Virus record (IMG/VR): IMGVR_UViG_3300033134_000009
Span: 1 to 36,731 of that record
Length of the DNA stretch: 36,731 nucleotides
Source: a virus
Reading direction: 5' to 3' (one strand)
The translations under genes and the position numbers were made by a program. The notes under the pieces were generated by a model. That model did not search any database. It worked only from the letters and a program-made list of their open reading frames with translations, and was not told the DNA's origin. This document shows positions 4,316-18,956 of this stretch, piece by piece; the stretch's first letter is position 1; each line of letters opens with the position of its first letter.

Positions 4316-4344
4316 ACTATAAGCCTTAGTGTTTTTATTGTCAA
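4316..4344 (-). promoter_or_regulatory. Consensus sigma-70 promoter of left operon
   Basis: On the minus strand TTGACA (4344..4339) and TATAGT (4321..4316) are separated by exactly 17 bases. The predicted transcript starts near 4309 and has a leader of about 230 nt before the first gene at 4075. Two direct copies of GTCAACGTT lie just upstream of the -35 box. Confidence 0.75.
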
Positions 4345-4409: not shown

Positions 4410-4541
4410 TTAAAAAGATGAGTCTACTAAGATCTTTTCTGGACGCTGTTTTCGCACGTAACATTTAAGATAATACTTAGATAGTGAGCGTAGTGTTTTA
4501 AATTTATTTATGCCGTTATTTGTAAAATATATTGTTACCAT
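4410..4541 (-). CDS. Leaderless small basic protein, 43 aa
   Basis: This 43-codon frame (MVTIYFTNNGINKFKTLRSL...) has no ribosome site. Its ATG starts exactly 6 bases after the TATACT box of a perfect-consensus promoter, so the mRNA should begin at the AUG. The protein is basic (many K and R) with tyrosine and leucine residues, and no domain is recognised. The same promoter-to-ATG geometry is found at four other genes here, which is the main support. The stop lies inside a nested hairpin at 4395-4427. Confidence 0.55.
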   Translation of the reverse strand: MVTIYFTNNGINKFKTLRSLSKYYLKCYVRKQRPEKILVDSSF

Positions 4542-4547
4542 AACTAA

Positions 4548-4576
4548 AGTATAGCACTAATGCTTACTATTGTCAA
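4548..4576 (-). promoter_or_regulatory. Consensus promoter TTGACA-17-TATACT, leaderless type
   Basis: On the minus strand TTGACA (4576..4571), a 17-base spacer and TATACT (4553..4548) preceded by TGc form a full sigma-70 promoter with extended -10. It overlaps the last codons of the putative terS gene. The ATG at 4541 is 6 bases downstream. Confidence 0.75.
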
Positions 4577-5009
4577 GATCTGTGAGGTCAATTATCTCTT
4601 CGTCTGGTGGAGGAGTTTCCCCGGAGCCTGTGAGATCTATGGCGATTTTCACTACTTCCGAATGCGACTCAATCCGTGTCGTGGCTTTTCCATGTACTTT
4701 ATCGTGACCAAACATAGCAGCATTTAAGGCTATCTCACGCTTTCTGGGGACTTCTGAGTCCTTCCAGTCTTTAACCGTGCCTACGATAGCTGACTCAAAC
4801 AGTTCATTGTGCTCAGCGAGTGCCATTTGGACGTTTTTATTTTGCATTAAATTTCTGCCTAATGTAGATGCAGAATAGGTATTTTTAACATTAAAACCAG
4901 CTTTTTTAACTGAAGTACTAATTGGCTCTTTAGGATTATCTATTCTAGCTTGTATAAAGGCCTTACGTTTAGGAGTAAGTTTATAATCTTTTTTTAATCT
5001 AACTGTCAT
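4557..5009 (-). CDS. terS: Putative terminase small subunit
   Basis: This 150-aa protein has an N-terminal segment (LTPKRKAFIQARIDNP...SVKKAGFNVKN...LGRNLMQNKNVQMALAEH) that fits the helix-turn-helix DNA-binding domain of phage small terminases. A helical middle segment and an acidic, disordered tail (IDLTGSG...IIDLTDLD) follow. It would bind the packaging site and hand DNA to the large subunit encoded at 9449-10822. It is unusual in lying on the opposite strand about 4.4 kb away from that gene. A transcription regulator with a similar HTH is the main alternative. Confidence 0.6.
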   Translation of the reverse strand: MTVRLKKDYKLTPKRKAFIQARIDNPKEPISTSVKKAGFNVKNTYSASTLGRNLMQNKNVQMALAEHNELFESAIVGTVKDWKDSEVPRKREIALNAAMFGHDKVHGKATTRIESHSEVVKIAIDLTGSGETPPPDEEIIDLTDLDNSKH

Positions 5010-5021
5010 AGATTAAGAATA

Positions 5022-5285
5022 TCATGCACCCCAATTTTGTGTAGGTTTATAAGATAATGATTTAACAGCTTTTTTAGCATCTGATTTAGTTTTTATTATA
5101 AAGTTTCCATTCCCTTGATATTTATTTATTAAATTTTCATCTTTAAGAGGTTTAATGTCTTTAGTTAAGAGGGTTTGAATAGTTGGAGCATTTAATTGTT
5201 GATGTAGCCACTCTGTTTTATTTGGTAATTTCTTCCATAACTTTAGATCGGCTTCAGTTCTTAAATATGCTGTTATTTGAATCAT
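5022..5285 (-). CDS. Possible ribbon-helix-helix regulator, 87 aa, leaderless
   Basis: I choose ATG 5285 (MIQITAYLRTEADLKLWKKL) rather than the GTG at 5315 because it lies exactly 6 bases after a TACAAT box, matching the leaderless arrangement seen elsewhere. The first 35 residues look like a short beta strand, then helix, PNKTEWL turn and helix, as in CopG-type ribbon-helix-helix proteins. The rest is basic. The -10 region is embedded in palindromes (GTGTACAC and ATGTATACAT), which suggests autoregulation. It lies just upstream of terS. Fold assignment is tentative. Confidence 0.5.
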   Translation of the reverse strand: MIQITAYLRTEADLKLWKKLPNKTEWLHQQLNAPTIQTLLTKDIKPLKDENLINKYQGNGNFIIKTKSDAKKAVKSLSYKPTQNWGA

Positions 5286-5314
5286 GTATACATTGTACAT
5301 TAATAACGTGTACA
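5281..5314. promoter_or_regulatory. Palindromic operator-like cluster
   Basis: Two perfect palindromes, ATGTATACAT (5285 region) and GTGTACAC (5307-5314), plus TGTACA lie over the promoter and start of the RHH-like gene. The 10-mer TATACATTGT here (5287-5296) recurs at 5481-5490 inside CACAAT-ATAC-ATTGTG, suggesting a shared binding site. Confidence 0.5.
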
Positions 5315-5321
5315 CTGTAAA
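5292..5321 (-). promoter_or_regulatory. Promoter TTTACA-18-TACAAT, leaderless type
   Basis: On the minus strand TTTACA (5321..5316), an 18-base spacer and TACAAT (5297..5292) precede ATG 5285 by 6 bases. TG directly precedes the -10 box. Palindromes overlap both elements. Confidence 0.6.
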
Positions 5322-5761
5322 GTATTTTAATTAGTTTTAATTTGGTTAAGAGTTATGTAACAGTTCAATGTATGAACTTTCTTCCCCGAGTTTCAAATTT
5401 TCAGAACCCCCAAAATATTAGAAAACGTCGCACTGCATGTCGTCAATTTACAGGGGTCAGATTGCTATAACGTCGCACAATATACATTGTGGATCACTAC
5501 TTACCACTGACGACAATAGACATACCTATTCGTCACGCTATATGTGGTGTACCACCATCCACAATATATGTATAATCAATGAAAGTTTTTTATTCTAACT
5601 AAAACTTTTGACCATTCCAAAAAACTATAGTACAAACCACCCCCCAGCGATGTTGCGTTCATTATTTTACTATATATTATATATATAATTAAGAAGATGG
5701 AGCTATGTCTATATATCTCCAAACATATTGACTAACATAATCACTTTGCTAGAATAATCTT
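5316..5761. other. Non-coding, repeat-rich intergenic region
   Basis: No gene is seen in about 445 bases. The region holds a second TATACATTGT (5481-5490) within an inverted repeat CACAAT/ATTGTG, a 10-bp direct repeat AACGTCGCAC (5424-5433 and 5469-5478), an inverted repeat GTGGT-GT-ACCAC near 5545, and an AT-rich TATATATTATATATATA-type tract near 5670-5690. Such a mix suits a control region or replication origin, but neither is proved. Confidence 0.55.
5728..5755 (+). promoter_or_regulatory. Promoter TTGACT-16-TAGAAT, leaderless type
   Basis: TTGACT (5728-5733), a 16-base spacer and TAGAAT (5750-5755), with TGc before the -10 box, lie so that ATG 5762 follows after 6 bases. Confidence 0.65.
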
Positions 5762-5941
5762 ATGGAAAAACAACCCTTAGTAACAAAAGACACCCCCCTA
5801 GTCGGTAAAGCCCCCCAGGTCAAAGTAATACTCATTAAAGAAGATTTAAATGAACTCCAGTCTCTCCTAGAACAAAAGTGGAAAATAGCCGTAGCTTACC
5901 AACATGCACAAGGAGCTTTATTCCTTTTAATGAAAGATTAG
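5762..5941 (+). CDS. Small leaderless protein, 59 aa
   Basis: This gene of 59 codons encodes MEKQPLVTKDTPLVGKAPQV, then a helical segment (IKEDLNELQSLLEQKWKIAV), ending ALFLLMKD. There is no ribosome site. The ATG lies 6 bases after an extended -10 box with a good -35, so a leaderless mRNA is predicted. It is the only plus-strand gene in this part of the genome and points towards the minus-strand MazG-like gene. Function is not recognised. Confidence 0.55.
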   Translation: MEKQPLVTKDTPLVGKAPQVKVILIKEDLNELQSLLEQKWKIAVAYQHAQGALFLLMKD

Positions 5942-5976
5942 AATGGATGAGAAGACCTTAGAACTTATTAAAGAGT

Positions 5977-6207
5977 TTAACCGGAAAAATCACCACCCTT
6001 CTTCTTTAAGAGTCTAGTTAGACGATACACTGCTAGATCTACAATCTCCTCTAGCTCACAGAATTCTAATTCTTCATCAGTAAGCTCCCACAGGTTCCCT
6101 CCGTGCTCTTTTTGACCTTTCAGGTACTTGGGTTCCATTTTTCTATGAAACTCCTCTATAAGAGCGTGTAGATGGTCTATATGGGCTTTACGTACATTGT
6201 TTGTCAC
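5977..6207 (-). CDS. MazG-like protein, 76 aa
   Basis: The start is GTG 6207, because AGGAG lies 7 bases upstream; a longer GTG start at 6222 lacks this. The segment M-x2-KYLKGQKEHGGNLWEL...FCELEEIVDLAVYRL resembles small phage proteins related to the MazG all-alpha NTP pyrophosphohydrolases, in which E-x2-(E/D) helices bind magnesium. If active, it would hydrolyse (d)NTPs or an alarmone. The family identification is by pattern and moderately sure; activity is not. Confidence 0.6.
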   Translation of the reverse strand: MTNNVRKAHIDHLHALIEEFHRKMEPKYLKGQKEHGGNLWELTDEELEFCELEEIVDLAVYRLTRLLKKKGGDFSG

Positions 6208-6248
6208 TTTGATGCTCCTCACCGTAAATTTTATTGATTATTTGTCGG

Positions 6249-7031
6249 TTAGACATATTTGACCCCTTCTTCTTTTACTTTTTTTCTATCAGATGGGTGA
6301 AAACCACAGTTAGGACATGTCCACCGACGATATCTGCCTGTTTTAGTCGGACGATAACCATCAGACCAAAACTTGCCTTCATAAAGGCATCTCGGACAGC
6401 CTTCGGGCCTTCCCTCTATATTAGCCATATTAGGGTGATTAGTGGACCACGCTCTCATGCAGAGATAGACTTTTTCTAATAAGATTGTATCCCAGCGGTT
6501 ATAGCGTTTCATTTTTGCCCAGGCTTTTGGATCTCCTTTCATGCAGCCGTCCCATGTTTCAATTCCCCCAGTGTCTATTTTCCCAGGAATGCCAAAATAT
6601 CTCGCTAGATCGTCTAGTTTATTTGACGTAAATCCGAATTCTTTTTTTGCCATTTTCTTCGTATCTATCTGAATAGTAGGAGAGTGTGGTTTAAGACCGT
6701 GCACAGCCATTCTTGCTCTAGTTTTTCGGTAGTCAAACTTATCCCCGTTATGGGCGATGGTAATATCTGCTTCGTTAAACAGTTTCCATAGTTCTTTGAC
6801 GACGTTTTGGTCATCATTCACTCCAGGTTTGTAGTTTTTAAAATCATCCTGACCAATAACGTGAGCTTTCTCACCTAACCATTTATATGAAAAACAGAGT
6901 ATCTGGAAGTCTTCAATAACACCTTTGCCTTGTCCTATGACGTCTTGTTCGTAAATGCCCCAAGTTTTGGTAATTAGATAAGAGGTTTCAAGATCATACA
7001 ACAAGACTTTAGTTTTAGTCTTGTCGGGCAT
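6249..7031 (-). CDS. DEDDy 3'-5' exonuclease with C-terminal zinc ribbon
   Basis: This 260-aa protein has the three exonuclease motifs of the RNase H-like DEDD superfamily: YDLET (D13, E15), AHNGDKFD (D100) and Y177-NRW-D181, the YxxxD form found in family B polymerase proofreading domains and YprB-like nucleases. C212PRC215 and C239PNC242 form a zinc ribbon at the end. It is therefore a stand-alone 3'-5' exonuclease, possibly for proofreading, repair or RNA decay. No polymerase gene is in this window. The start has GGAGG and overlaps the upstream gene by 17 bases. Confidence 0.85.
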   Translation of the reverse strand: MPDKTKTKVLLYDLETSYLITKTWGIYEQDVIGQGKGVIEDFQILCFSYKWLGEKAHVIGQDDFKNYKPGVNDDQNVVKELWKLFNEADITIAHNGDKFDYRKTRARMAVHGLKPHSPTIQIDTKKMAKKEFGFTSNKLDDLARYFGIPGKIDTGGIETWDGCMKGDPKAWAKMKRYNRWDTILLEKVYLCMRAWSTNHPNMANIEGRPEGCPRCLYEGKFWSDGYRPTKTGRYRRWTCPNCGFHPSDRKKVKEEGVKYV

Positions 7032-7263
7032 ATACAGCCTCCATCATTGTTTGGACACTGGGTTTTATGGGCGGTTGTTCCTCATGGTGAATCATAGCGT
7101 GTTCGTAGGAACATATGCGGTCTTTATTGACTTCAAGATCACGAAATTCTCTTTCTAGCTGAGTACGATACATATATGCCGGCCAGTACCTGTGGTGGAC
7201 GTTCATAAAGTGATTTTTTAGCGGACACTTCTCCTGGAGTTCAGGGGGACATTCAATCTTCAC
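7015..7263 (-). CDS. Cys/His-rich small protein, 82 aa
   Basis: I place the start at GTG 7263, with GGAGG 5 bases upstream, rather than the ATG at 7368 that would overlap the previous gene by over 100 bases. The protein begins MKIECPPELQEKCPLKNHF and has HHRYWPAYMYRTQLEREFR and ICSYEHAMIHH. The C-x7-C pair and the C-x3-H-x3-H cluster suggest a metal site. Similar short phage proteins with an EH-x2-(I/L)H ending are common but unassigned. It is too short for a complete HNH nuclease. Confidence 0.65.
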   Translation of the reverse strand: MKIECPPELQEKCPLKNHFMNVHHRYWPAYMYRTQLEREFRDLEVNKDRICSYEHAMIHHEEQPPIKPSVQTMMEAVYARQD

Positions 7264-7468
7264 TTTGACCTCCAAAGAACGGATCTTCTTTATCTCGGTA
7301 AAAAACGGCTGTAGGATACTGAGAATGGTCCATAACGCCCATTTCAGCAAGGTCTTCAAAGATCTCAATCACCCGGGCTAGAGAATCAATACATATATTC
7401 TCTGGGACTAGAATAAAACTCCACGATCCCCGGATAATATAGCCTTCATGGTCACCTTCGTATTTCAT
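7253..7468 (-). CDS. Unknown protein, 71 aa
   Basis: I do not recognise this acidic protein (MKYEGDHEGYIIRGSWSFIL...). A beta-strand-rich start is followed by a helix (DSLARVIEIFEDLAEMG). Its ATG overlaps the previous stop as ATGA and has GGAG 5-6 bases upstream, which supports the start. No metal or catalytic motif is visible. Confidence 0.7.
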   Translation of the reverse strand: MKYEGDHEGYIIRGSWSFILVPENICIDSLARVIEIFEDLAEMGVMDHSQYPTAVFYRDKEDPFFGGQSED

Positions 7469-7677
7469 GTGATCTCCAAGAGGGGGAATAATTCCTCTAA
7501 AAGCTGGTCTATTTTAGCGTTTTTTTCTTCAATAACGTCTTGGTGAATCCCAAAAGTGTGCATACACTGAGCGATCAATTCAACACACTGCTGCTGTTTC
7601 AAGCGATGGTCTTCACGCTCGTCTACTTCTTTTTCTAAATAGGCCTGGATTATCTCAGGCTGCGTGAGGCGGCTCAT
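7465..7677 (-). CDS. Unknown helical protein, 70 aa
   Basis: Nearly all of the sequence is predicted helix (AYLEKEVDEREDHRLKQQQC, then KNAKIDQLLEELFPLLE), so a small coiled-coil or oligomerising protein is likely. It overlaps its upstream neighbour by 23 bases and its downstream neighbour by 4. No family recognised. Confidence 0.7.
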   Translation of the reverse strand: MSRLTQPEIIQAYLEKEVDEREDHRLKQQQCVELIAQCMHTFGIHQDVIEEKNAKIDQLLEELFPLLEIT

Positions 7678-7909
7678 TGTTTAGCCCATCTATGAACGGA
7701 TCGTGTTCTGGTTCGCCAGCAGGAGCAGCCATAGGGTGTCCAAATGCTGGGACTGGGTCGTAAACACCGCTTCTATTAAGGGCAATGTTGACGAGGTTCA
7801 TATCTCGGATTTGAGAGGCAATTCGGCTTCCTATATGTTTGCGCATTTCCACTAGTTCTTGTGGGGTCATGCGGTCTATGTCTATTTTTATACCGTTGAT
7901 ACGTTCCAT
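7655..7909 (-). CDS. Unknown protein, 84 aa; first gene of the middle leftward operon
   Basis: The first half is helical (DIDRMTPQELVEMRKHIGSR...) and the second half is proline- and acid-rich and probably disordered. The ATG at 7909 follows an A-rich leader with no ribosome site. A weak TATATT box lies at 7941..7936 on the minus strand. It heads the 7909-5977 operon that includes the exonuclease. Function unknown. Confidence 0.7.
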   Translation of the reverse strand: MERINGIKIDIDRMTPQELVEMRKHIGSRIASQIRDMNLVNIALNRSGVYDPVPAFGHPMAAPAGEPEHDPFIDGLNNEPPHAA

Positions 7910-7949
7910 TTTGTTTTTTTTAAGACTCCGTTTTAAATATACACCTTCG

Positions 7950-7958
7950 TGATAAAAT
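7950..7958 (+). promoter_or_regulatory. Extended -10 promoter TGaTAAAAT
   Basis: TG-a-TAAAAT on the plus strand has no good -35. It would start a transcript near 7965 that ends at the 8130-8167 terminator. Confidence 0.4.
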
Positions 7959-8010
7959 AAAGTAGTTAAATAGGAAATTTGGGGATTCTACCAGCGTCTG
8001 ACCCCTGCCA

Positions 8011-8115
8011 ATGAAACACAGATCAGTTAAATCAGTTATAGACTTTGAACTCTACTACGAAACAATGGGATCCAGACAAGAAACTATCCTAGACATACTT
8101 GCCTCACAGCTATAA
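8011..8115 (+). CDS. Possible 34-aa peptide
   Basis: The ORF begins MKHRSVKSVIDFELYY and ends ILDILASQL, 15 bases before a rho-independent terminator and downstream of an extended -10 box. It has no ribosome site near the ATG, and the peptide matches nothing I know. The flanking promoter and terminator make a short transcript likely. Whether it is translated or acts as RNA is open. Confidence 0.35.
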   Translation: MKHRSVKSVIDFELYYETMGSRQETILDILASQL

Positions 8116-8129
8116 AAGACAATAGGACC

Positions 8130-8167
8130 CCCTTATCCTTGTAGCTAGGATATAAGGGCCGATTTTT
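8130..8167 (+). terminator. Rho-independent terminator
   Basis: CCCTTATCCT pairs with AGGA-ta-TAAGGG (two-base bulge, 7-base loop), followed two to four bases later by TTTTT (8163-8167). Confidence 0.6.
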
Positions 8168-8195
8168 ATATCTAAAACAGTGGCAGCGTCATAAG

Positions 8196-8259
8196 CATAG
8201 CAAAGGGCTAGGTTGCCGTGGTAGGGGGTGTTATAGCAGAGCCTAGACTTTACGCTATG
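8196..8259. other. Long imperfect hairpin, possible structured RNA
   Basis: CATAGC, AAAG and CTAGG on the left (8196-8212) pair with CCTAG, CTTT and GCTATG on the right (8242-8259), separated by small internal loops and a loop of about 29 bases. Its function is unknown. It lies in the leader of any transcript starting upstream on either strand. Confidence 0.45.
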
Positions 8260-8384
8260 ACTACGATCTATCCGGATCTGCTACATGTTTTGGGTTTTGA
8301 CATAGAGTACCTTTAACTCTTTTTATAAAAATGTATTTGCAAACATTTGACTTTTGTAGTACGCTGTAGGTACATTGAAAGTCA

Positions 8385-8410
8385 GCAGCTCCTTCGGGAG
8401 CTGTTTTCTT
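8385..8410 (+). terminator. Strong rho-independent terminator with UUCG loop
   Basis: CAGCTCC-TTCG-GGAGCTG is a perfect 7-bp stem with an ultra-stable UUCG tetraloop, followed by TTTTCTT. A TTGACA at 8297-8302 with TTTTAT 18 bases later could start a short transcript of about 75 nt ending here. The terminator also shields the late promoter from read-through. Confidence 0.8.
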
Positions 8411-8482
8411 AATGTCTACCCCTTTTTGGTTTTCATTGAAAGTCAAAAAGTTAGTTTTTAGTGTACGTTAAAAATTTTACTA

Positions 8483-8512
8483 TTGCAAGCACATACATAA
8501 TGAGCGTATGAT
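8483..8512 (+). promoter_or_regulatory. Late-operon promoter TTGCAA-18-TATGAT
   Basis: TTGCAA (8483-8488), an 18-base spacer and TATGAT (8507-8512) predict a start near 8519, about 24 bases before the first late gene. The terminator just upstream isolates it. Confidence 0.6.
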
Positions 8513-8542
8513 CTAAGTGTATTAACAATGAGGGAAAAACAA

Positions 8543-9304
8543 ATGGACGAAAATCCAAAACCTGGCAAAGGGCAAACTTTTGATCCAGACGAACCTCAAA
8601 CAAAAACAGAGCCTCAGGCTCAAGAAACAAAAGGAACTGTCACCTTAACACAAGAGCAGTTTGACGCACTTATTAAACGATTAGACGGGAGAAGCGTAAC
8701 GGATATGGCGCCGGCCGTGTCTTTTGCTACCGGTCTACGGACTAACTCGCTGGGACAAGTGGTAGGGACAGTCACAAAATACTCTATAGATCCCGAGGAC
8801 TACCCATCGCCAATAGAGGATCTTTTGGATGATTTTGAGAGGGATCCTAAAATGCGTAGATTTAATCTGAGGGATAATTATTATATCTCTTGGGATATGA
8901 CGGCTAAACCCTATCAGACTAAGGATGGTCTTTCTGTGCAGGAACCAACTTTCCATGTTACGATCCACGAAAACGAATACGATGAGGAGGGAAATGAAAC
9001 CGGCAGGTTCATAATCCGTAAGACGCTTCATTTTAACGAAGACGAAGAGTTAATAAATATCTTTGCTTCGGAGAATGGTATAGAAATTACGCCCGAAACA
9101 CTGAAAGATTTGTATAAAAAAGTTCGTTACCAGAGGGTAAGGGACTGGATGGTGAACGAATACTTCTTTCCGCCCAGGATCTACTCTCAAAATGACGATG
9201 CTACCGAACTGGCAGTAGACGGTCACGTAGTGAAAGTGGTTACCAAAAGTAATGTAAAAGGCTGGGATAAAACTCCAGTCATTAAAGATGAGGAGTTATC
9301 GTGA
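8543..9304 (+). CDS. Unknown protein before terL, 253 aa
   Basis: I choose ATG 8543, which has GAGGG 8 bases upstream, over the ATG at 8528 that lacks a site. The first 50 residues are disordered (P, K, Q and E rich). The rest is an alpha/beta domain with acidic and aromatic segments (DPEDYPSPIEDLLDDFERDP, RDNYYISWDM, RYQRVRDWMVNEYFFPPR). It is the first late gene and is coupled to the next by GTGA. It could be a packaging or head-assembly accessory by position only. Confidence 0.75.
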   Translation: MDENPKPGKGQTFDPDEPQTKTEPQAQETKGTVTLTQEQFDALIKRLDGRSVTDMAPAVSFATGLRTNSLGQVVGTVTKYSIDPEDYPSPIEDLLDDFERDPKMRRFNLRDNYYISWDMTAKPYQTKDGLSVQEPTFHVTIHENEYDEEGNETGRFIIRKTLHFNEDEELINIFASENGIEITPETLKDLYKKVRYQRVRDWMVNEYFFPPRIYSQNDDATELAVDGHVVKVVTKSNVKGWDKTPVIKDEELS

Positions 9305-9486
9305 TACTTAAGAAGAAACAACCAAAAGTAATAGACCAAGCTATAGTTTTAAAAGCCTATGATGTAATAATGCTTCCTAATGGCAACGTTTATAGGGTGG
9401 AACCCGATCTAACCAAACTCAAACTTTTGGCTGTAGATAACATACCTGATGGCAGTGGAATATCAGCCCCACCAAAAGCAGATTGA
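9301..9486 (+). CDS. Unknown small protein, 61 aa
   Basis: The gene starts with GTG overlapping the previous stop (GTGA), with GAGGAG in front. The sequence (MILKKKQPKVIDQAIVLKAY...LPNGNVYRVEPDLTKL) looks like a small beta-rich domain with a flexible end. It overlaps terL by 38 bases, which suggests co-translation with the terminase. No family recognised. Confidence 0.6.
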   Translation: MILKKKQPKVIDQAIVLKAYDVIMLPNGNVYRVEPDLTKLKLLAVDNIPDGSGISAPPKAD

Positions 9487-10822: not shown

Positions 10823-11118
10823 AAGACGACATGCCGGTTTGGCTTAAGGATTTATATAAATCTACTAATGAAGTACCGTTTGGGGAAATTCACGTTCACA
10901 GGTTTCGTCATCGGACTAACATGTGGGAATTGGTAAAAGAAGTAATTTTATCTCCAAAAACTAATGAAGATGCATTTTTAGACCTCCAACAGTTATTAAA
11001 TAACCTAGTTTCGTCAAAATTTAGTGGTAAATTGGAATTTTCGCTAGATTTTGATAAAGAGGGTATAATCAACCATATAACAATTAAAAACAAAGAAATT
11101 AAAAAGTATGGAACCTAG
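10819..11118 (+). CDS. Unknown protein between terL and portal, 99 aa
   Basis: The start is ATG 10819, overlapping the terL stop as ATGA with AGGAG upstream; the longer frame from 10786 is rejected. The sequence (MKDDMPVWLKDLYKSTNEVP...) has a helical middle (DAFLDLQQLLNNLVSS) and a beta-rich end (GKLEFSLDFDKEGIINHITIKN). It overlaps the portal start by 11 bases. Function is unknown. Confidence 0.7.
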   Translation: MKDDMPVWLKDLYKSTNEVPFGEIHVHRFRHRTNMWELVKEVILSPKTNEDAFLDLQQLLNNLVSSKFSGKLEFSLDFDKEGIINHITIKNKEIKKYGT

Positions 11119-13243
11119 TAGCCTTAAAACAAAACTTACAAATCCCAATAATACAGCTCCATCTGGCGAAGATGACTATGAAAATATAAATCCAGAAACT
11201 TCAGGCGAGACTCAAGTTGACGAATATATTGAAAAAGTCCGAGCTGATTTTCGCTATGATCTTTTAGCACATGACAATTACATACAAAACTTTGATTCTT
11301 ATGAGGCAATGCTTATATCTCGGCCTTACGACTCAGTGTCTAAAAAGATCCAAAATGGGCTTTCAGACGGTAGAACCACCACGATTTACCAAGAACGAGC
11401 CGCTAGGGTGTGTGGACAACTTCCTAAAGGCTCTATGCGGGCTGCTGGTAAGAAGGATGAGGGCGTAGCTGCAGTTCTGGACATTATTAGGCAAAAGTAT
11501 GTCTATCCACATGCAAATGCCCAGGCTCCTCTCCTCCGAAAATACCGAAATTGGCAGTTTTATGCCTCAGTTTACGGATATATGCCCATGTTCTACGATT
11601 GGGAAGTAAACGAAAATAACGGTTATATTGGTCCACAGTGTTGGTTGTGGCACCCTAGGAATTTTGTGCCTCAGATTGGCAGAGCGTCTATAGAAGATAT
11701 GGATTATTGTACCGCTTTAACTTTCGTATCTGAGCCATTTTTGAAAAATTTGCTTAAAATGGATCCGGAGGACGCTGAAGAAGGGGGTTGGGATTTAGAC
11801 GAAGTTAAGATTCTGTGTGATTTGATAGAAGAACGCCTGAGGTTTCCAGATTCCCGTAGAGATTCTCTTTTGACCCGTGAGCGTCAATCTCAGGCTGAAA
11901 AAGGCCGAATTATGCTTGCAACCCGCTATGAGGCTGGGATGGACGGAAACTGGGTTACAATCGCTCCAGAGTACAACGGGGTTTGTGTCCGTTCTCTGCG
12001 TAATCCGCACCAAAATGGCAAAATACCCTTTGTTATAAAAGCGGCGACTGATACTTTTGATAACTTTTACAATCTAGGAGACTTTCAACGTGCAAAACCT
12101 CTTCAGTTCTTTAGCGATGGTCTTGATAATTTCTACGCTGCTGGTCTTAAACGTGGTCTTTACCCTCCTACTATTATTAATCCTGCTGGCGTTGTTAAGA
12201 GTTCTATCACACAAGATCCAGGGGCAATCTGGCAGGAAACGGTAGCTAATTCTATCCGAGAATACGCTACTTCTCCCGTAGGGCTAAATACTTACCAAGC
12301 AGCTAAAACCATGGTTAACGCTGCGCTTCTTAATCAGGCTGGAACTACGGATATGGCGTCAACCGACACTACGGCTGATCCAGCTTCTGGGAAAAGTCCG
12401 CAAGGAATCGCTCAACAGGCTCAAAGGGAGTCTGCACGAGACAATCAGGATAGATTTGATCTGGAGTCTGCGATAGAGATTTTGGAAGATCGCATGATGG
12501 GATTATTTGGGACGATGGCGACGGAGAACATTAATATTGATATGTTTGCTGAAGATTTTAAAGAAATTGCCGAAGCGGGGCTCATAGGCGTAGACGATAA
12601 TGGTAACTTAATTGGTTCTTTGGCTAAAATGCTAGATATTAGTGAAAGTAAAAATAGTGCCAAAATGACCATTAAGCCGGCTTTCTTTAAGAATTTGTCG
12701 CTTAGATTTGAAATTGATCCTAACTCTACCGCCTCTTCCGATAAGCGTACCCAACTGTCTAACTTGGAGAATTTTGTTCAAGGAATTGGATCTTTACAGA
12801 ACGTAATGACTCAAATAAACGACCAAGGCTGGATGTTAGATGTTGTCCAACTAGCTAAGTTAGAAGAGGACCTAGGAGACGTACCAGAAATGGGTAAGAT
12901 ATTCCGAAAGATGACTCCTCAAGAGCAACAGGCTTACCAGCAGTCTCAGCAACCAGCGCCTAAGCCTCCGACTGATATTGATACCACAGCCTACAAAGAT
13001 TTACCTGAGTGGGCACAAATGCAAAGACTCCAAAAAGAAGGCTATACTGTACCTCCAAATGCTGATTTTTCTACTACAGACGATAAACTTAAAGCAGCTG
13101 AATTTGGTCTAAAAGCTCACGAAGCTATCCAACCAAAACCCGAAGCTACCCCTCCTCCAGAGTTTCATAATGGTAAACTAATTAAAGATCCTGTAATAGC
13201 AGATGCCCATAAAAAGGTAGGAGCAATAGCAAATGGCAGATAA
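11108..13243 (+). CDS. Portal protein, P22-type
   Basis: The 711-aa length matches the large portals of P22-like podoviruses (about 700 residues). The N-terminal half has features of such portals: an acidic start, AMLISRPYDSVSKKIQNGLSDGR, YASVYGYMPMFYDWEVN and WLWHPRNFVPQ. A helical stem region with glutamine-rich segments and a Pro-rich, disordered C-terminus follow. It forms the dodecameric ring through which DNA passes. It directly follows terL and an unknown gene, as expected. It starts with ATG inside the previous gene. Confidence 0.88.
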   Translation: MEPSSLKTKLTNPNNTAPSGEDDYENINPETSGETQVDEYIEKVRADFRYDLLAHDNYIQNFDSYEAMLISRPYDSVSKKIQNGLSDGRTTTIYQERAARVCGQLPKGSMRAAGKKDEGVAAVLDIIRQKYVYPHANAQAPLLRKYRNWQFYASVYGYMPMFYDWEVNENNGYIGPQCWLWHPRNFVPQIGRASIEDMDYCTALTFVSEPFLKNLLKMDPEDAEEGGWDLDEVKILCDLIEERLRFPDSRRDSLLTRERQSQAEKGRIMLATRYEAGMDGNWVTIAPEYNGVCVRSLRNPHQNGKIPFVIKAATDTFDNFYNLGDFQRAKPLQFFSDGLDNFYAAGLKRGLYPPTIINPAGVVKSSITQDPGAIWQETVANSIREYATSPVGLNTYQAAKTMVNAALLNQAGTTDMASTDTTADPASGKSPQGIAQQAQRESARDNQDRFDLESAIEILEDRMMGLFGTMATENINIDMFAEDFKEIAEAGLIGVDDNGNLIGSLAKMLDISESKNSAKMTIKPAFFKNLSLRFEIDPNSTASSDKRTQLSNLENFVQGIGSLQNVMTQINDQGWMLDVVQLAKLEEDLGDVPEMGKIFRKMTPQEQQAYQQSQQPAPKPPTDIDTTAYKDLPEWAQMQRLQKEGYTVPPNADFSTTDDKLKAAEFGLKAHEAIQPKPEATPPPEFHNGKLIKDPVIADAHKKVGAIANGR

Positions 13244-13517
13244 GAATTTACTGGCAAGTTTTAGGCCATTAACTGATGATTTTAAAATTGAAGAACCTGA
13301 TACTACTCCGGATGATTCTGACGAAAAACGACGTAAGAGCATAAGCAGAACGAAAAAATGGAAAGAATTTCTAGCATTCGTAGATCAACGGATTGAGCTT
13401 TATAAAGACTTTCAACCTGGGGTTAATCCGGCTATTACTAAAACGGACGACAACTGGCGAGTAGCAGATTGTGTTATTAAAGAATTGACGGTCTGGAAGA
13501 ACTTCATAGATGATTAA
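13233..13517 (+). CDS. Unknown protein behind the portal, 94 aa
   Basis: The start overlaps the portal end by 11 bases. The N-terminal third is acidic and disordered, followed by a basic helical part (RRKSISRTKKWKEFLAFVDQ) and an aromatic end. I do not recognise it. Its place between portal and scaffold suggests a head-assembly accessory, without sequence proof. Confidence 0.7.
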   Translation: MADKNLLASFRPLTDDFKIEEPDTTPDDSDEKRRKSISRTKKWKEFLAFVDQRIELYKDFQPGVNPAITKTDDNWRVADCVIKELTVWKNFIDD

Positions 13518-13806
13518 GCGTTTAAAAACTGATAAAGATTACATAGAGGCTGGTGTAGAGCCTCCCGAGCATATTATTCACACCGGTTCGGAAACTGTAC
13601 TTCAAGACACCCATTTACATTCCTGGGTAGCTAGAGGAAACTTTCTTCATTGCGAGGGATCGGAAACGGCCACAGCTCACGGCATCCCCTACGATCATCT
13701 TAATAAGGTTTTTGTAGGCACAGATGCGGACGGAGCACCAATTTTTAAAGACATTAAGGTTAGAAAGTTTATAGTTGTTGACAGTAGAGAGAAAAAGCCA
13801 GTATAG
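13510..13806 (+). CDS. Unknown protein, 98 aa, beta-rich
   Basis: The sequence contains several histidine-bearing segments (EPPEHIIHTGSE, QDTHLHSWVARGNFLHCEG) and a beta-rich C-terminus (VFVGTDADGAPIFKDIKVRK). It overlaps the previous gene by 8 bases. A promoter for the capsid genes overlaps its last codons. No family is recognised; a small beta-barrel is plausible. Confidence 0.65.
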   Translation: MIKRLKTDKDYIEAGVEPPEHIIHTGSETVLQDTHLHSWVARGNFLHCEGSETATAHGIPYDHLNKVFVGTDADGAPIFKDIKVRKFIVVDSREKKPV

Positions 13807-13807
13807 T
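13778..13807 (+). promoter_or_regulatory. Capsid-gene promoter TTGACA-18-TATAGT
   Basis: TTGACA (13778-13783), an 18-base spacer and TATAGT (13802-13807) lie over the end of the preceding gene. The transcript would start near 13814, directly before a GGGG-CCGT-CCCC hairpin (13818-13829), and serve scaffold and coat genes. Confidence 0.7.
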
Positions 13808-13817
13808 ATTAAACAAT

Positions 13818-13829
13818 GGGGCCGTCCCC
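13818..13829 (+). other. 5'-end hairpin of capsid transcript
   Basis: GGGG-ccgt-CCCC lies about 4 bases after the predicted transcription start. A stable hairpin at an mRNA 5' end can slow decay. No T-run follows, so it is not a terminator. Confidence 0.45.
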
Positions 13830-13856
13830 CCTTAAGCGGATGAAAGGAAAATTAAA

Positions 13857-14663
13857 ATGGCAGACTCAGATGAGGATAAAACAACATTAGGGCAAGATAC
13901 CCCTGATGCTACGGACGACCAACCCGTAGATAAGCCCGACGAGAACACCCCTCCGGTAGAAGAAGACGACAAGGATGACCAAAGTCGTCGTGAACGCCGA
14001 GAAGAACGTTATGTGGATCTTTTAGCTAACAAGATTAAAAGTACACCGCAGCCCGTTTATGAGGATAATTTGTTCAAACCGAGCGAATATGAACCTTTAG
14101 AATTTAAAGAGGGTGCAGAATACGATCCAGCTCAGTTAGAAGAAGATCGTAAGGCTGTCTCGGCTAATAAACTAGCCGAGGGAGTAGATCTAGGCTTCAA
14201 ACGAGGAATGAACGCAGCTCAGGCCATCAAGTGGGAAACCAACTTTATGATGGATGCTAAAGACGTTAAGTCCGAGTACGGAGAAAAGCTAGATCCTAAG
14301 ATAGAAAAAGCTGTTGTCCAAGATTATATCGCTGCTAGTGGTATAACTCAGGACGCTAAAGGCAGATTAAATATCGCTAATCCCAATATAAACTTTAAAG
14401 AATTCTTTGACAAAGAGATGGATAAAATGGAGACCTATGCAGCTCTCGCAAGAGCTGAATCTTCAGATAATGTAGCCAAACAAGCTGCTAAAGGCGCAAT
14501 TCGGCCTACCACAGCTTCTAAGCCTACAAAAGGTGATCACGGATTTGATCCAAACGATCCCGTAAGATCTGTAGCTAGAATGACTAGCGAACAGTATCAT
14601 GAACTCGGCGGCAAAGAAGCTAGTGATGCGTACCTAGCGGAACGTGGACTAGCCCCGAAATAG
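13857..14663 (+). CDS. Probable scaffolding protein
   Basis: This 268-aa protein lies directly before the coat gene and is highly charged. The first 60 residues are acidic and disordered, followed by RRERREERYVDLLANKIKS and a mostly helical body, with a basic C-terminal third (KGAIRPTTASKPTKGDHG, ending YLAERGLAPK). Size, charge, position and strong ribosome site (GAAAGGAAAATTAAA) match a scaffold that guides coat assembly and leaves the prohead. The family is inferred from context, not from a motif. Confidence 0.75.
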   Translation: MADSDEDKTTLGQDTPDATDDQPVDKPDENTPPVEEDDKDDQSRRERREERYVDLLANKIKSTPQPVYEDNLFKPSEYEPLEFKEGAEYDPAQLEEDRKAVSANKLAEGVDLGFKRGMNAAQAIKWETNFMMDAKDVKSEYGEKLDPKIEKAVVQDYIAASGITQDAKGRLNIANPNINFKEFFDKEMDKMETYAALARAESSDNVAKQAAKGAIRPTTASKPTKGDHGFDPNDPVRSVARMTSEQYHELGGKEASDAYLAERGLAPK

Positions 14664-14698
14664 TTTTCAATAAAAAATAAAGAGAAGGAAATAAAGTT

Positions 14699-15550
14699 AT
14701 GGCGGATGTCACAACGACCACTGAGGCCTATCTAATAGCGCAGAAGTGGACAAAAGAAGTTGAACTACCTTTTTATAAGGCTCTTCGCTTCCAAGCTTTG
14801 GTAACACAGCGTGGAAACCTAGTTCAGGATGGTGGTAACATCATCAACGTACCATTCCTGGGTACGCTAAACGCCAGGAGCAAAGCAGCCTCAACTAACG
14901 TCACTTATGACGCCAACACTGAGACTACTATTACCATAAACATTAACAAGCAAACCTACTCAGCTGTCCTTATTGAGGACATCGCTAAGGTACAGGCTAG
15001 CTATGACCTGCAGTCTCTTTATCGTGCTGCTCAGGCCGAAGCTGTTGCTAGGCAGGTTGATACCGATATTGCTTCCCTTTACACAGGGGCTGGTACTACT
15101 GTTTCAGCCGGTGCTACTGTTACTGACCCGAACGTCATATCTGTTGTTCAGACTTTTGATGCTAACAACGTTCCTCGTAGCGAACGTTACGGCATAATTG
15201 GTGCTTACACCGAATCTGACCTATTGAACGTCAACAAGTATGTTGCTTACGATCAAACTGGTCAAACAGGTGTTGCGGTTAAAGAAACAGCTTCCGATGA
15301 CTCCCTTGTAGGACGTTTGTACGGCATGGAACTACATATGTCAAACAACGTTGTAGTAACTGGTGGTTCAGGTTACGACGTCTTCTTCCACAAGAAGGGA
15401 CTATCCATTGCTATGCAGCTTCCTCCAACTTACAAAATGGAAGACTCTGTTGATGCAATCGGTATGAAAGCTGTACTTCACTGTATTTACGGTGTAGCAG
15501 TTGAAAGGTCAACTGCTGTAGTAGCGCTTTCAAGAACTACTAACGCCTAA
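14699..15550 (+). CDS. Major capsid (coat) protein, HK97-fold type
   Basis: The 283-aa protein begins MADVTTTTEAYLIAQKWTKEVELPFYKALRFQ and continues with features of phage coat proteins: GGNIINVPFLGTLNA, KQTYSAVLIEDIAKVQ (spine helix region), ARQVDTDIASLYTG and a C-terminal GMKAVLHCIYGVAVER. It has the place (after scaffold), length and beta-rich composition of an HK97-like major coat protein. A strong ribosome site (GAAGGAAATAAA) and the upstream promoter suit high expression. It probably forms the shell of the head. Confidence 0.88.
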   Translation: MADVTTTTEAYLIAQKWTKEVELPFYKALRFQALVTQRGNLVQDGGNIINVPFLGTLNARSKAASTNVTYDANTETTITININKQTYSAVLIEDIAKVQASYDLQSLYRAAQAEAVARQVDTDIASLYTGAGTTVSAGATVTDPNVISVVQTFDANNVPRSERYGIIGAYTESDLLNVNKYVAYDQTGQTGVAVKETASDDSLVGRLYGMELHMSNNVVVTGGSGYDVFFHKKGLSIAMQLPPTYKMEDSVDAIGMKAVLHCIYGVAVERSTAVVALSRTTNA

Positions 15551-15560
15551 TAGGTCGCTT

Positions 15561-15579
15561 GGGGCTGGCGCACAGCCCC
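15561..15579 (+). other. Stable hairpin after the coat gene
   Basis: GGGGCTG-gcgca-CAGCCCC is a perfect 7-bp stem that starts 10 bases after the coat stop. No T-run follows, so it is more likely an mRNA stabiliser or processing site that raises coat-gene output than a full terminator. Confidence 0.55.
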
Positions 15580-15601
15580 TCTAAAAGAAAAGGAAATAAA
15601 A

Positions 15602-16129
15602 ATGTCTAAAGCAGAATATATTGCAAACAGCTCGGACTTCGTTTACAACGCTAGTACTCAAGCTGGTGTAGCACTTTCTACGGGACTATCTACAACTCAG
15701 ACTGGTTTTACCCTGACTAATCCATTTAACTCAGGCTATAACTTGATCCTGTTGCAGATATTTGTCACGCCTACGACTATTCCGGCAGCTACAGCGTCTA
15801 TTGTCTTGACCGCAAATATTGCTACCGCAGCTAGTTCCACGGCAGTAGTCCAGACTACTGCGTTAACTGTAAGAAACGCTAAGTTAGGCGCAGGTTCTAA
15901 TGCTGTAGGATTGGCGGCTTCTGCTGCTACCTTACCAGCTGCTCCAGTTGTTGTAGCGCCCTTGGGAGGTATTGCTGGAACTACTGACGTTGCTTCACCT
16001 AGTACCCTCCTAACCAACCTAGATGGTGGTTTTGTAGTCAGTCCAGGAAGCGCCGTTTCGGTCAACTCGTTAACCACAGCAATTACTTGTATCGTGGCAA
16101 TGAACTGGGCCGAAGTAGCAGCATTTTAG
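15602..16129 (+). CDS. Probable capsid decoration or head protein, 175 aa
   Basis: The sequence is rich in Ala, Thr, Val and Ser, lacks charge in the middle, and alternates beta strands, indicating an extracellular-type beta-sandwich. Segments such as TGFTLTNPFNSGYNLILLQI and AAMNWAEVAAF-like ending resemble virion surface proteins encoded behind coat genes. The ribosome site AAAAGGAAATAAAA is strong. Decoration or head-fibre function is inferred from position. Confidence 0.6.
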   Translation: MSKAEYIANSSDFVYNASTQAGVALSTGLSTTQTGFTLTNPFNSGYNLILLQIFVTPTTIPAATASIVLTANIATAASSTAVVQTTALTVRNAKLGAGSNAVGLAASAATLPAAPVVVAPLGGIAGTTDVASPSTLLTNLDGGFVVSPGSAVSVNSLTTAITCIVAMNWAEVAAF

Positions 16130-16138
16130 TGTTACAAT
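16130..16138 (+). promoter_or_regulatory. Extended -10 promoter TGtTACAAT
   Basis: TG-t-TACAAT lies one base after the previous gene ends and about 28 bases before the 16166 ATG, which has AAGGAG. No -35 is evident. Confidence 0.45.
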
Positions 16139-16165
16139 ATAAACATTAACTAAAAGGAGAATGTT

Positions 16166-16732
16166 ATGTCCCCAGATGAGACAACTTCTGCTCCAGTAGA
16201 CTCTACGGTTCCACCCGTAGTGGATCCTGCTGTAGCTGCCACAGATGAGCCCGTAGAGGCTCCTGCTGCGTCTGCAGAGCCAGCAACGGCTCCAGACGTA
16301 CCAGTATCAGCTCCCGAGGCTCCAGCACCAGCTGCTGAGACTCCAGAGCCTTCACCTGAGCCAGAAACAACTCCAGCCGACCAAGGAGAGGCAACTGCAA
16401 AGCCTCCGGTAGAGGACACTATTACGAGTGCTCCTTTGCCTGAAAATCCTGCTCCAGCGGAGCCGACTGAAGAAGTTTCTACGCCAGAGGAAGACAAAGA
16501 GGCTGAAAGGCTTGACAGTGAGGCTGAAAAGCACGCTGCTGAGGCTGCCAGTGAAAGTACAGAAGCCGCTCAAGATCTCTCCCCTGAGGAGGAGGCCGCT
16601 GCTTCAACCGATTCGCATATTGACGGATCAAACATAGGCCAAACAACAGCTGGAGATTTTCAAGAAAATCTACCTAAAAATGAAAATGGACAGGTAGAAA
16701 TAGACGAGAATGGCAAAGTTGTAGGTCTGTGA
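16166..16732 (+). CDS. Low-complexity acidic Pro/Ala/Glu-rich protein, 188 aa
   Basis: Residues 1-150 are almost wholly P, A, E, T, S and V, with repeated APA and PEP motifs. The last 35 residues (SHIDGSNIGQTTAGDFQENL...) look more ordered. The protein must be largely disordered and acidic. It lies among head and fibre genes, so it could be a head-surface, linker or ejection-related protein, but its function is unknown. Its start has AAGGAGAATGTTATG. Confidence 0.7.
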   Translation: MSPDETTSAPVDSTVPPVVDPAVAATDEPVEAPAASAEPATAPDVPVSAPEAPAPAAETPEPSPEPETTPADQGEATAKPPVEDTITSAPLPENPAPAEPTEEVSTPEEDKEAERLDSEAEKHAAEAASESTEAAQDLSPEEEAAASTDSHIDGSNIGQTTAGDFQENLPKNENGQVEIDENGKVVGL

Positions 16733-16738
16733 TACAAT
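16730..16738 (+). promoter_or_regulatory. Extended -10 promoter TGaTACAAT
   Basis: TG-a-TACAAT overlaps the stop of the 188-aa gene. It predicts an RNA start near 16745 that ends at the 16791-16812 terminator. Confidence 0.5.
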
Positions 16739-16744
16739 AAATAA

Positions 16745-16813
16745 GTCTCAATCTATACACTACTTAAGAGGTTGAGTTTACGATATGAAACCGCCACTCC
16801 ACTGGCGGTTTTG
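16745..16813 (+). ncRNA. Candidate small RNA of about 70 nt
   Basis: From the predicted start, the RNA would hold a 7-bp stem CTCAATC/GGTTGAG (16747-16778 region, one G-U pair), a short linker and a terminator hairpin CCGCCA-ctccac-TGGCGG followed by TTTTG. No ribosome site or conserved ORF is visible. Promoter, stem and terminator fit into one compact unit between two genes. Confidence 0.45.
16791..16812 (+). terminator. Rho-independent terminator
   Basis: CCGCCA (16791-16796), a 6-base loop and TGGCGG (16803-16808) followed by TTTTGTATTT form a clear terminator upstream of the GroES-like gene. Confidence 0.75.
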
Positions 16814-16819
16814 TATTTA

Positions 16820-16828
16820 TGGTATAGT
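16820..16828 (+). promoter_or_regulatory. Extended -10 promoter TGgTATAGT, leaderless type
   Basis: TG-g-TATAGT is followed by 6 bases and then ATG 16835. No -35 is visible, and the upstream terminator blocks read-through. Confidence 0.6.
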
Positions 16829-16834
16829 TGGTTT

Positions 16835-17089
16835 ATGCAACTATTACATGATAACGTGGCTGTGGAGCAGGATGCGCCACAAAAAGAGACAGAGGCCGGT
16901 ATTTTACTGGCAGAACAGATAGCTACTTACTCGCCCATTGGTACTATTGAGGGTGTAGCACCGAACATAAGCGGTATAAAAAAAGGTGATAGGGTAATAT
17001 ATCAGCCCCACGGGGGTCAGTTTGTTAAATTTGAGGGAAAGGAGCTAGACATTGTCCCTTATGGGTCAATTTTAGCGAAGATTAAGTGA
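16835..17089 (+). CDS. GroES-like co-chaperonin
   Basis: The 84-aa protein matches the chaperonin-10 pattern: MQLLHDNVAVEQDAP (PLxDRV-like strand), a mobile-loop region with AGILLAEQ where I-L-L stands for the GroEL-binding I-V-L of GroES, then PIGTIEGVAPN, IKKGDRVIYQPHGGQFVKFEGKEL and DIVPYGSILAKI. It is shorter than the 97-aa bacterial protein but complete. It would cap host GroEL, probably to fold the coat protein (as T4 gp31 does). The start at 16835 is supported by the leaderless promoter; an earlier TTG start in the terminator region is rejected. It ends in a GTGA overlap. Confidence 0.85.
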   Translation: MQLLHDNVAVEQDAPQKETEAGILLAEQIATYSPIGTIEGVAPNISGIKKGDRVIYQPHGGQFVKFEGKELDIVPYGSILAKIK

Positions 17090-17325
17090 GATCTGCATCT
17101 AAAGATATAGCTTTAACTAACCGTAAGACGACTAAATTTGGTGAAGCGGTTAAAAAGCAGATAGGCAGCGCCACGCTGAGGGATTTTGGAGGTCGGGCAA
17201 AGGTGACAATGAGGTGGAACCTGAATCCGGCCTCTATAAGGGATCAGGTTTTTGAACTCTCTATTAATGGAGAAAAGGCGTATATAGACTTGGAGCAATT
17301 ATTGGCATATACTAGGCTCATGTAG
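17086..17325 (+). CDS. Unknown basic protein coupled to GroES, 79 aa
   Basis: A GTG start overlaps the GroES stop (GTGA), so the two genes are probably co-translated. The sequence (MRSASKDIALTNRKTTKFGE...) is basic, with a beta-rich second half (VTMRWNLNPASIRDQVFELSINGEKAYIDLEQL). A small beta domain such as an SH3-like fold is possible. Not recognised. Confidence 0.65.
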   Translation: MRSASKDIALTNRKTTKFGEAVKKQIGSATLRDFGGRAKVTMRWNLNPASIRDQVFELSINGEKAYIDLEQLLAYTRLM

Positions 17326-17327
17326 CG

Positions 17328-17336
17328 TGATAAACT
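17328..17336 (+). promoter_or_regulatory. Extended -10 promoter TGaTAAACT
   Basis: TG-a-TAAACT lies three bases after the previous stop, with a leader of about 15-20 bases containing AAAAGGAAAATAAAA before ATG 17360. Confidence 0.4.
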
Positions 17337-17359
17337 AAAAATATAAAAGGAAAATAAAA

Positions 17360-17770
17360 ATGGCTTTAGATGATGTAGCTCAACCCGATTCAAATGATAT
17401 TCCCCAGGTAGATCTGGCTGCTCTGTCTTTTGGATATAATCCCTTTGTTCTTCCAGCTACCCTACCCTCTACCCCAGCCCCTTTAACCAGTAGTTCTGGT
17501 AAGTTTGGCGGGTACGCCGTGATGAACACTACTACCTCCCTAGCTTACTTATTTATTTGGGATTCAACAGCCGCCCCCACAATAGGCACAAACGCTCCTA
17601 GGATAATTATTCCTCTTCCTTATAACGCAACTACTGGCAACGGCACAATGGCTAACCTTGATTTAGATAATGGAGTTAAGATACAGCATCAGCAGTGGTA
17701 TTGTATTTCCAGTTCTTATAGCGGTGCGGCTCAAACGTCTGGTGTAGTAGGAACACTGTTTGTAATATAA
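17360..17770 (+). CDS. Beta-rich structural protein, 136 aa
   Basis: The sequence is uncharged, with P, T, S, G and aromatic residues (FGYNPFVLPATLPSTPAPL, YAVMNTTTSLAYLFIWDST, KIQHQQWYCISSSYSG), indicating a beta-sandwich virion protein. A strong ribosome site (AAAAGGAAAATAAAA) precedes it. It probably belongs to the head-surface or fibre set with the following genes. No precise family recognised. Confidence 0.55.
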   Translation: MALDDVAQPDSNDIPQVDLAALSFGYNPFVLPATLPSTPAPLTSSSGKFGGYAVMNTTTSLAYLFIWDSTAAPTIGTNAPRIIIPLPYNATTGNGTMANLDLDNGVKIQHQQWYCISSSYSGAAQTSGVVGTLFVI

Positions 17771-17779
17771 GGAGAAGGT

Positions 17780-18210
17780 ATACCTCCAGTCCCCATAGTC
17801 TCAACAACAGCCTTGTCAAGCTATACGTCAGATGAAACTGGTGCCACTTACACTATTAACACTGGGGGATATAATAACGTACAGGGAGATCATCTGCTGT
17901 TTGCTATAACTGGTAATTCAGGCAACTCTACATTCAATGAACATTGTGGTTCTGGCAACTTTAATACTATAGCTACAGACTTAGGGCTAGAGGTAAACCG
18001 AAACCTAGTTGTAGCTGGATGGTGCATGAACTATGCACGAGACGAGATCCTAGGCGGTCAACTAGGCGCTCAAGGACAAAGACAGTTTACTAGCGTATCG
18101 GTTGGGGGGGTAGCACCGAATCTATCGGAGGAATACTGTTCATGTTAGATACTGCTTTACCTATAGATTATATGGCTGGAGTGCTGCCCGCAGCTGGTGT
18201 TGGTAGCTAA
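17780..18210 (+). CDS. Structural protein split by a G7 run; probable -1 frameshift product
   Basis: The zero frame runs to TAG at 18146-18148. Within it, GTT-GGG-GGG-GTA (18101-18112) holds seven G (18104-18110). Reading on in the -1 frame gives about 34 more residues (GGSTESIGGILFMLDTALPI...) that end VLPAAGVGS at TAA 18208-18210, much like the ends of neighbouring proteins. So slippage or an indel joins the two frames. The start is unclear: TTG 17813 has no ribosome site, whereas ATA 17780 has AAGGAG five bases upstream. The fused protein has an uncharged, beta-rich virion-protein composition. Confidence 0.55.
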
Positions 18211-18212
18211 CG

Positions 18213-18221
18213 TGATATGAT
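18213..18221 (+). promoter_or_regulatory. Extended -10 promoter TGaTATGAT, leaderless type
   Basis: TG-a-TATGAT lies 3 bases after the frameshifted gene ends and exactly 6 bases before ATG 18228, which has no ribosome site. Confidence 0.6.
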
Positions 18222-18227
18222 GAAAGC

Positions 18228-18956
18228 ATGGATAAAAAACAAAATAATGACGAAATAACTAAAAGAGATTATCGGATTGCAGTTCGGGGTATTATAGAAG
18301 CGTTAGGGCGGCTTTCCAAAGAGCTACAGCTCAAGCTTGGTGATGTAGAAAAAGCGGCTAAGACGTTTCCCGAAATTCCCCAACCTAACATAAGCATTAA
18401 GGCTCCCATAGTGAAAGTTGACGCCCCTAACCTCAAAGGGATAGAGGTTTTATTATCTAAAGAACTGCCTAAGCTTTTAAAACAGTTGACAGACTCTATT
18501 CCTGAAACGCCTGAAACAGACCTGAGCGGTGTAGAAAAAGCGTTGGAGAAGCTTCTTTATACTATGGCTGAGGTTAGAGACCGTAAAATCCCTGTTCCTC
18601 AGATGCCCACCACGCTAAAAGTTACTAACCCGAACGGAACTCCGGTAGGATCTGAAGCTTTACCTCTCTCTACCACGCCTTTAGTGGGTCAAGCAGTAAT
18701 TTCTACTACGGGCACAGCCGTAAACCTAGAATCAGGAAGTAGCCAAGCACTTCTTAATGGTTTGATTGTGACCGCAAACGCTAACAATGTAGCAGATGTC
18801 TGTTTAGGAACATTTGATGTAGAAAACATAACAAATGGGGCTGGTAATGGATATGTTCTCCAACCAGGTGCTTCTATTTCTTTTGCCCTAGCTAACTCAG
18901 ACGAACTATGGGTCACAGGAACAGCAAATGATTCAATAAGCTGGGCTGGTAGCTAA
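18228..18956 (+). CDS. Structural protein with coiled-coil N-terminus, 242 aa, leaderless
   Basis: Residues 1-125 are charged and helical (IIEALGRLSKELQLKLGDVE, LLSKELPKLLKQLTDS), with a proline-rich IPQMP linker. Residues 130-242 form an uncharged beta domain ending VTGTANDSISWAGS. A helical stalk with a beta head suggests a trimeric fibre or head-fibre protein. There is no ribosome site; an extended -10 box 6 bases upstream predicts a leaderless mRNA. Confidence 0.6.
   Translation: MDKKQNNDEITKRDYRIAVRGIIEALGRLSKELQLKLGDVEKAAKTFPEIPQPNISIKAPIVKVDAPNLKGIEVLLSKELPKLLKQLTDSIPETPETDLSGVEKALEKLLYTMAEVRDRKIPVPQMPTTLKVTNPNGTPVGSEALPLSTTPLVGQAVISTTGTAVNLESGSSQALLNGLIVTANANNVADVCLGTFDVENITNGAGNGYVLQPGASISFALANSDELWVTGTANDSISWAGS

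Follow-up and report, generated by a model that had tools for sequence, protein, structure and literature searches.

Where transcription begins is the question raised by several genes of an uncultivated tailed phage, whose IMG/VR virus record (IMGVR_UViG_3300033134_000009) was analysed over its whole length, a window of 36.7 kb with 44% GC. In an initial annotation of this window, five ATGs without a ribosome site had been described, each following a -10-like hexamer that has TG or TGn before it and ends exactly 6 nt short of the ATG, and leaderless mRNAs had been predicted for them. Direct reading confirmed this arrangement, and none of the motifs AGGA, GGAG, GAGG and AAGG was found before the five ATGs. 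When both strands were scanned for TGn?TANNNT-N6-ATG followed by an open reading frame (ORF) of at least 40 amino acids (aa), a sixth site appeared that had been overlooked, ATG 5009(-). In all six genes the first T of TANNNT lies exactly 12 bp before the start codon, and a Shine-Dalgarno (SD) site was present in 0/6. We consider it very probable that the six genes (Table 1) have private sigma-70-type promoters which give leaderless mRNAs.

The window holds six such sites against 0.225 ± 0.49 in 200 dinucleotide shuffles, the maximum in any shuffle being 3. Among its candidate start ATGs an extended -10 was counted six times at N6 and 0 times at every other spacing between 0 and 12; over the other spacings up to 30 the mean was 0.27, which gives a P of about 4e-7. 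When the TG was ignored, TANNNT-N6-ATG occurred 32 times in the whole window, only slightly above the 23.6 ± 4.5 of shuffled sequence, so it is the TG and the open frame that matter. Two further TANNNT-N6 sites, at 1270(-) and 33016(+), without TG and with a purine at -1, were set aside.

The mechanism that we propose is that ORF 4541, the terminase small subunit gene terS (5009), the ribbon-helix-helix (RHH)-like gene 5285, ORF 5762, groES (16835) and gene 18228 would each be served by its own sigma-70-type promoter, the extended or simple -10 of which ends 6 bp upstream of the ATG. Transcription would start at the A of the start codon through a normal Y(-1)A(+1) initiator, and the leaderless mRNA would be translated by direct recognition of its 5'-terminal AUG, with no need of SD pairing. 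The true 5' ends, the use of a host sigma-70-type holoenzyme and the efficiency of translation are inferred. The likeliest reason for the layout would be compactness, since few bases give one gene its own promoter, as where the gene directly follows a terminator (groES) or sits between two neighbours (terS).

Spacing and initiator base in the phage family

The geometry was then counted in a family pool, formed by the window and the family loci, with 2,194 non-redundant gene calls and 3,043 candidate ATGs. For TGnTANNNT-Nk-ATG with k = 4 to 8 the counts were 8, 1, 36, 4, and 6, and the 36 at N6 have, given the other spacings, a Poisson P of about 2e-17; leaving the window out, the N6 count was 31. 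GTG and TTG starts gave no N6 peak (3 GTG, 2 TTG), and because GTG starts are rarer no conclusion on the host was drawn from it. The genes with the leaderless layout form a class of 43, or about 2% of the family gene calls.

The base at -1 played no part in the selection of this class. It is a pyrimidine in 43/43 members (T in 28, C in 15) against 48% of the other ATGs without SD (Fisher P = 4e-14), and extended -10s at most other spacings, where counts are small, follow no such rule. Bacterial RNA polymerase favours a purine start directly preceded by a pyrimidine, and because the pattern matches this preference the A of the ATG acts like position +1. In 17/43 members a -35 with 4/6 matches or more is present, compared with 12.8% of control extended -10s. 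The gene cI of phage lambda, transcribed from PRM, is the textbook leaderless gene; the same scan on lambda returned cI and one 31-codon frame, cI being the sole known gene among them. The N6 spacing, the SD absence, the -1 pyrimidine, the -35 enrichment, the relatives and lambda cI all support the leaderless mRNAs that had been predicted. In the viral contigs L004-L025, which are unrelated and were found through GroES, a small N6 excess was also noted (6 versus about 1 elsewhere).

The six genes and their orthologues

Table 1. Promoter elements and genes at the six start codons, in positions of the window.
Feature	Position (strand)	Layout or length	Remarks
Promoter of ORF 4541	4548..4576 (-)	TTGACA (4571-4576), 17-nt spacer, TGC-TATACT (4548-4553), TTAGTT, ATG	-1 = T
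ORF 4541	4410..4541 (-)	43 aa	leaderless layout; coding status uncertain
-10 before terS	5016..5021 (-)	TGA-TATTCT-TAATCT-ATG 5009	-1 = T
terS-like gene (terminase small subunit-like)	4557..5009 (-)	150 aa	phrog_51, E = 2.3e-4; 73 family ORF hits
Promoter of 5285	5292..5321 (-)	TTTACA (5316-5321), 18-nt spacer, TG-TACAAT (5292-5297), GTATAC, ATG	-1 = C
Gene 5285	5022..5285 (-)	87 aa	RHH-like by motif
Promoter of 5762	5728..5755 (+)	TTGACT (5728-5733), 16-nt spacer, TGC-TAGAAT (5750-5755), AATCTT, ATG; -1 = T	
ORF 5762	5762..5941 (+)	59 aa	no assigned function
Terminator-like hairpin	16788..16811 (+)		immediately 5' of groES -10; from sequence
-10 of groES	16823..16828 (+)	TGG-TATAGT-TGGTTT-ATG 16835	no good -35; -1 = T
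GroES (Cpn10)	16835..17089 (+)	84 aa	PF00166, E = 5.8e-13
-10 of gene 18228	18216..18221 (+)	TGA-TATGAT-GAAAGC-ATG	no good -35; -1 = C
Gene 18228	18228..18956 (+)	242 aa	no assigned function; 36 family ORF hits

A canonical TGn precedes the -10 at 5/6 sites; at 5285 the TG lacks the n and touches the hexamer, so this is not a canonical TGn extended -10. Good -35 hexamers stand at 3/6 sites (4541, 5762, and 5285), and 16835 and 18228, having none, would depend on the extended -10. Among the gene labels given earlier that of GroES holds, and its N-terminus is set by the Pfam alignment, which runs from residue 2. The labels of fibre for 18228, which has no Pfam or PHROG match, and of regulator-like genes are unproven. 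The 5285 protein gave no match to Pfam and PDB profiles. RHH regulators have two helices and an N-terminal strand; the monomer model of this protein has two confident helices (11-18 and 23-31) and no strand, and by its motif and these modelled helices it looks RHH-like. Considering that the palindromes GTGTACAC and ATGTATACAT overlap the 5285 promoter, autorepression of this gene through them is possible.

groES is common in the family, with 56 ORF hits of which 44 are distinct (7/10 records in one record set), and it is located after putative capsid genes. Of the 44 distinct copies, 12 have TANNNT at exactly N6. Among them are 5/6 of the group to which the groES of the window belongs (window, L003, L091, L094, and L095), while L026 has N8. 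About 9 changes are required to explain the N6 state on a tree of weak resolution, so this state seems to be gained and lost. A terminator-like hairpin lies directly before the groES -10 in the window and in L091, L094, L095, L120, and L153. About 14 terS loci have N6, and several others have N7. Homologues of 5285 in L026, L120, and L058 keep N6, and the terS and RHH-like homologues share their start position with the genes of the window. The 18228 homologue in L047 also has N6. It was also possible to see TGnTANNNT-N6-ATG on genes of L030, L075, L146, and L168 that are named homing-endonuclease-like from their sequence, as if mobile genes carried their own minimal promoter along.

Several points limit the leaderless reading. 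Whereas 874 of 1,420 first-ATG genes (62%) have an SD-like motif, only 1/43 of the class has one; this deficit supports the reading but is in part a consequence of the -10 lying where an SD would be. The 43 include orthologues, which are not independent data, though their upstream sequences differ. Many of the remaining groES orthologues have a leadered promoter or no visible promoter, the 5762 homologue in L026 has an SD site instead, and ORF 4541 is both short and not conserved, no homologue of it having been found.

The host and alternative explanations

It had been proposed that the layout hints at an actinobacterial host, a claim that was not supported and that we regard as unlikely. Leaderless genes in which TANNNT lies about 12 bp upstream of the start codon occur widely among bacteria, and their share exceeds 20% in Actinobacteria and also in Deinococcus-Thermus (PMC3160421). 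Leaderless promoters have been predicted in Cluster O mycobacteriophages (PMC4351075), and a distant terL relative has a gene annotated rpfB. The window encodes a GH25 lysozyme (endolysin) whose matches are led by Arthrobacter and Curtobacterium phages, with Firmicutes phages among them too; this suggests a monoderm host without singling one out. Against an actinobacterial host, leaderless genes are known from many phyla, and the N6 peak is absent in Arthrobacter phage Wollypog, mycobacteriophage D29, and Propionibacterium phage PA6. In 27 family records no WhiB passed the cut-off and no Rpf was found, which makes the claim less likely but is not decisive, because actinophages may lack these markers. 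When 84,980 species genomes were scanned twice, with the portal protein and with a portal profile, there were pattern matches, no confirmed relative and no provirus. GroES was not found in the Patescibacteria phage literature examined. The layout by itself does not reveal the host.

A separately timed gene class had also been proposed. On this view, one phage factor that recognises the promoter type would switch all six genes at once. They do have the -10 geometry in common; however, a near-consensus -35 at 3/6 sites and none at 2/6 argue against a single activator, and the same genes alternate in the relatives between leaderless and leadered promoters, so that joint timing appears improbable.

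A different account would accept the promoters as real and place most translation on longer read-through transcripts or at downstream starts, with a small leaderless share. SD-independent and coupled starts are frequent elsewhere in the window, and some groES orthologues without a promoter must be read from upstream. Nevertheless, the hairpin precedes groES, the GroES start is set by homology, the terS and RHH-like homologues agree in their start point, and a rule that the base just before the ATG is a pyrimidine would be pointless unless placing the start site on the ATG mattered. We find this account quite improbable. It is more doubtful still that the leaderless set, with terS, groES, the regulator-like gene, and the homing-endonuclease-like genes of relatives, forms a translational regulon. 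In such a regulon, recognition by 70S ribosomes or of the AUG end would sustain translation where initiation through SD sites breaks down, as might happen late in infection or when host toxins damage the anti-SD, and the phage would complete particle assembly. Finally, the idea that AT-rich upstream DNA yields TANNNT near ATGs by chance and that matches were picked, to which the slight excess over shuffles without TG and ORF lends something, is refuted at family level by the open-frame sites of the window, by an N6 peak sharp to one base in independent relatives and by the -1 pyrimidine, so that its likelihood is close to nil, although the single site 4541 could still be due to chance.

Related systems and other features of the window

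The private promoters proposed here, with transcription starting on the ATG, have close parallels. Lambda cI likewise has TGnTANNNT-N6-ATG, on a phage regulator; lambda has one such gene, whereas here there are six in one phage, packaging and chaperonin genes included. The Cluster O mycobacteriophages (Corndog and relatives, PMC4351075) are different phages with a known mycobacterial host, and there too the layout was predicted from sequence. The TA-led genes of Actinobacteria and Deinococcus-Thermus (PMC3160421, PMC12340547) similarly have the first T of TANNNT about 12 bp upstream and no SD. In TA-led cellular genomes, however, such genes make up about 20-40%, well above their share in the phage family, which in addition shows a strong association with a TG in front of the -10. 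Experimental proof exists for leaderless genes of Deinococcus (PMC12340547), and a 5'-terminal ATG or GTG is enough in mycobacteria (PMC4633059). Since TANNNT-led leaderless genes are already documented, the mechanism is known, and the phage family is a new, unusually clean and well-documented instance of it. Leaderless expression is probably recurrent in this uncultivated family, core genes such as terS and groES included; the evidence, single-base precision and an independent initiator signature, comes from sequence alone. TGnTANNNT-N6 with a pyrimidine before the ATG may serve as a cheap predictor of transcription starts in viral metagenomes, where the same pattern could correct gene starts.

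As regards the rest of the window, the stretch of 8.1-33.0 kb had no near DNA match among 50,697 sequenced phages. Profile search named the terminase and GroES, and an SSB-like and an exonuclease-like protein are also nameable. The putative portal protein (11108-13243), labelled by its position and neighbours and without a profile match, has 65 relatives in IMG/VR and, by tblastn, none in the sequenced-phage collection; tblastn with the conserved protein 14699-15550 and with a 1,779-aa protein gave no match there either. Identity to L003 is 93% and 86% for the adjacent genes 14699 and 15602 (14699-16129) but only 67-70% for terminase and portal, which suggests recent exchange or strong constraint on these two genes. 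Rfam gave nothing at the gathering threshold in the window, and two closer searches gave nothing meaningful. At 4076-4344 (-), the sequence TTGACA-17-TATAGT forms a near-consensus promoter; between it and ORF 4075 lie about 234 nt for which no leftward ORF is listed; a structured RNA at 4076-4309 was considered and rejected (z = -0.31, no meaningful Rfam match). At 17768-17815 the codon in the place of the start codon, downstream of a strong SD-like site (AAGGAGAAGG), is ATA, in frame with a TTG-started ORF at 17813; this ATA could be a non-standard start codon or the result of a mutation or of an error in sequencing.

In the relatives, MW202497, which is distantly related by its terL, has a gene with the annotation groEL. 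At L160:18300-19400, between terS and the 5762 homologue of relative G001, there is a long stretch without an obvious ORF and with no Rfam match, which has a TTGACA-type promoter and GC-rich repeats. tRNA genes were not found in the window; the close relatives L160 (15328-17770) and L091 (215-3070) carry arrays of 17 and 14 of them, and one of those in L160 is a tRNA-Ile whose anticodon is TAT. Ahead of the L091 array, and on its strand, lies a 58-aa ORF that shows the layout TGGTATAAT-N6-ATG.

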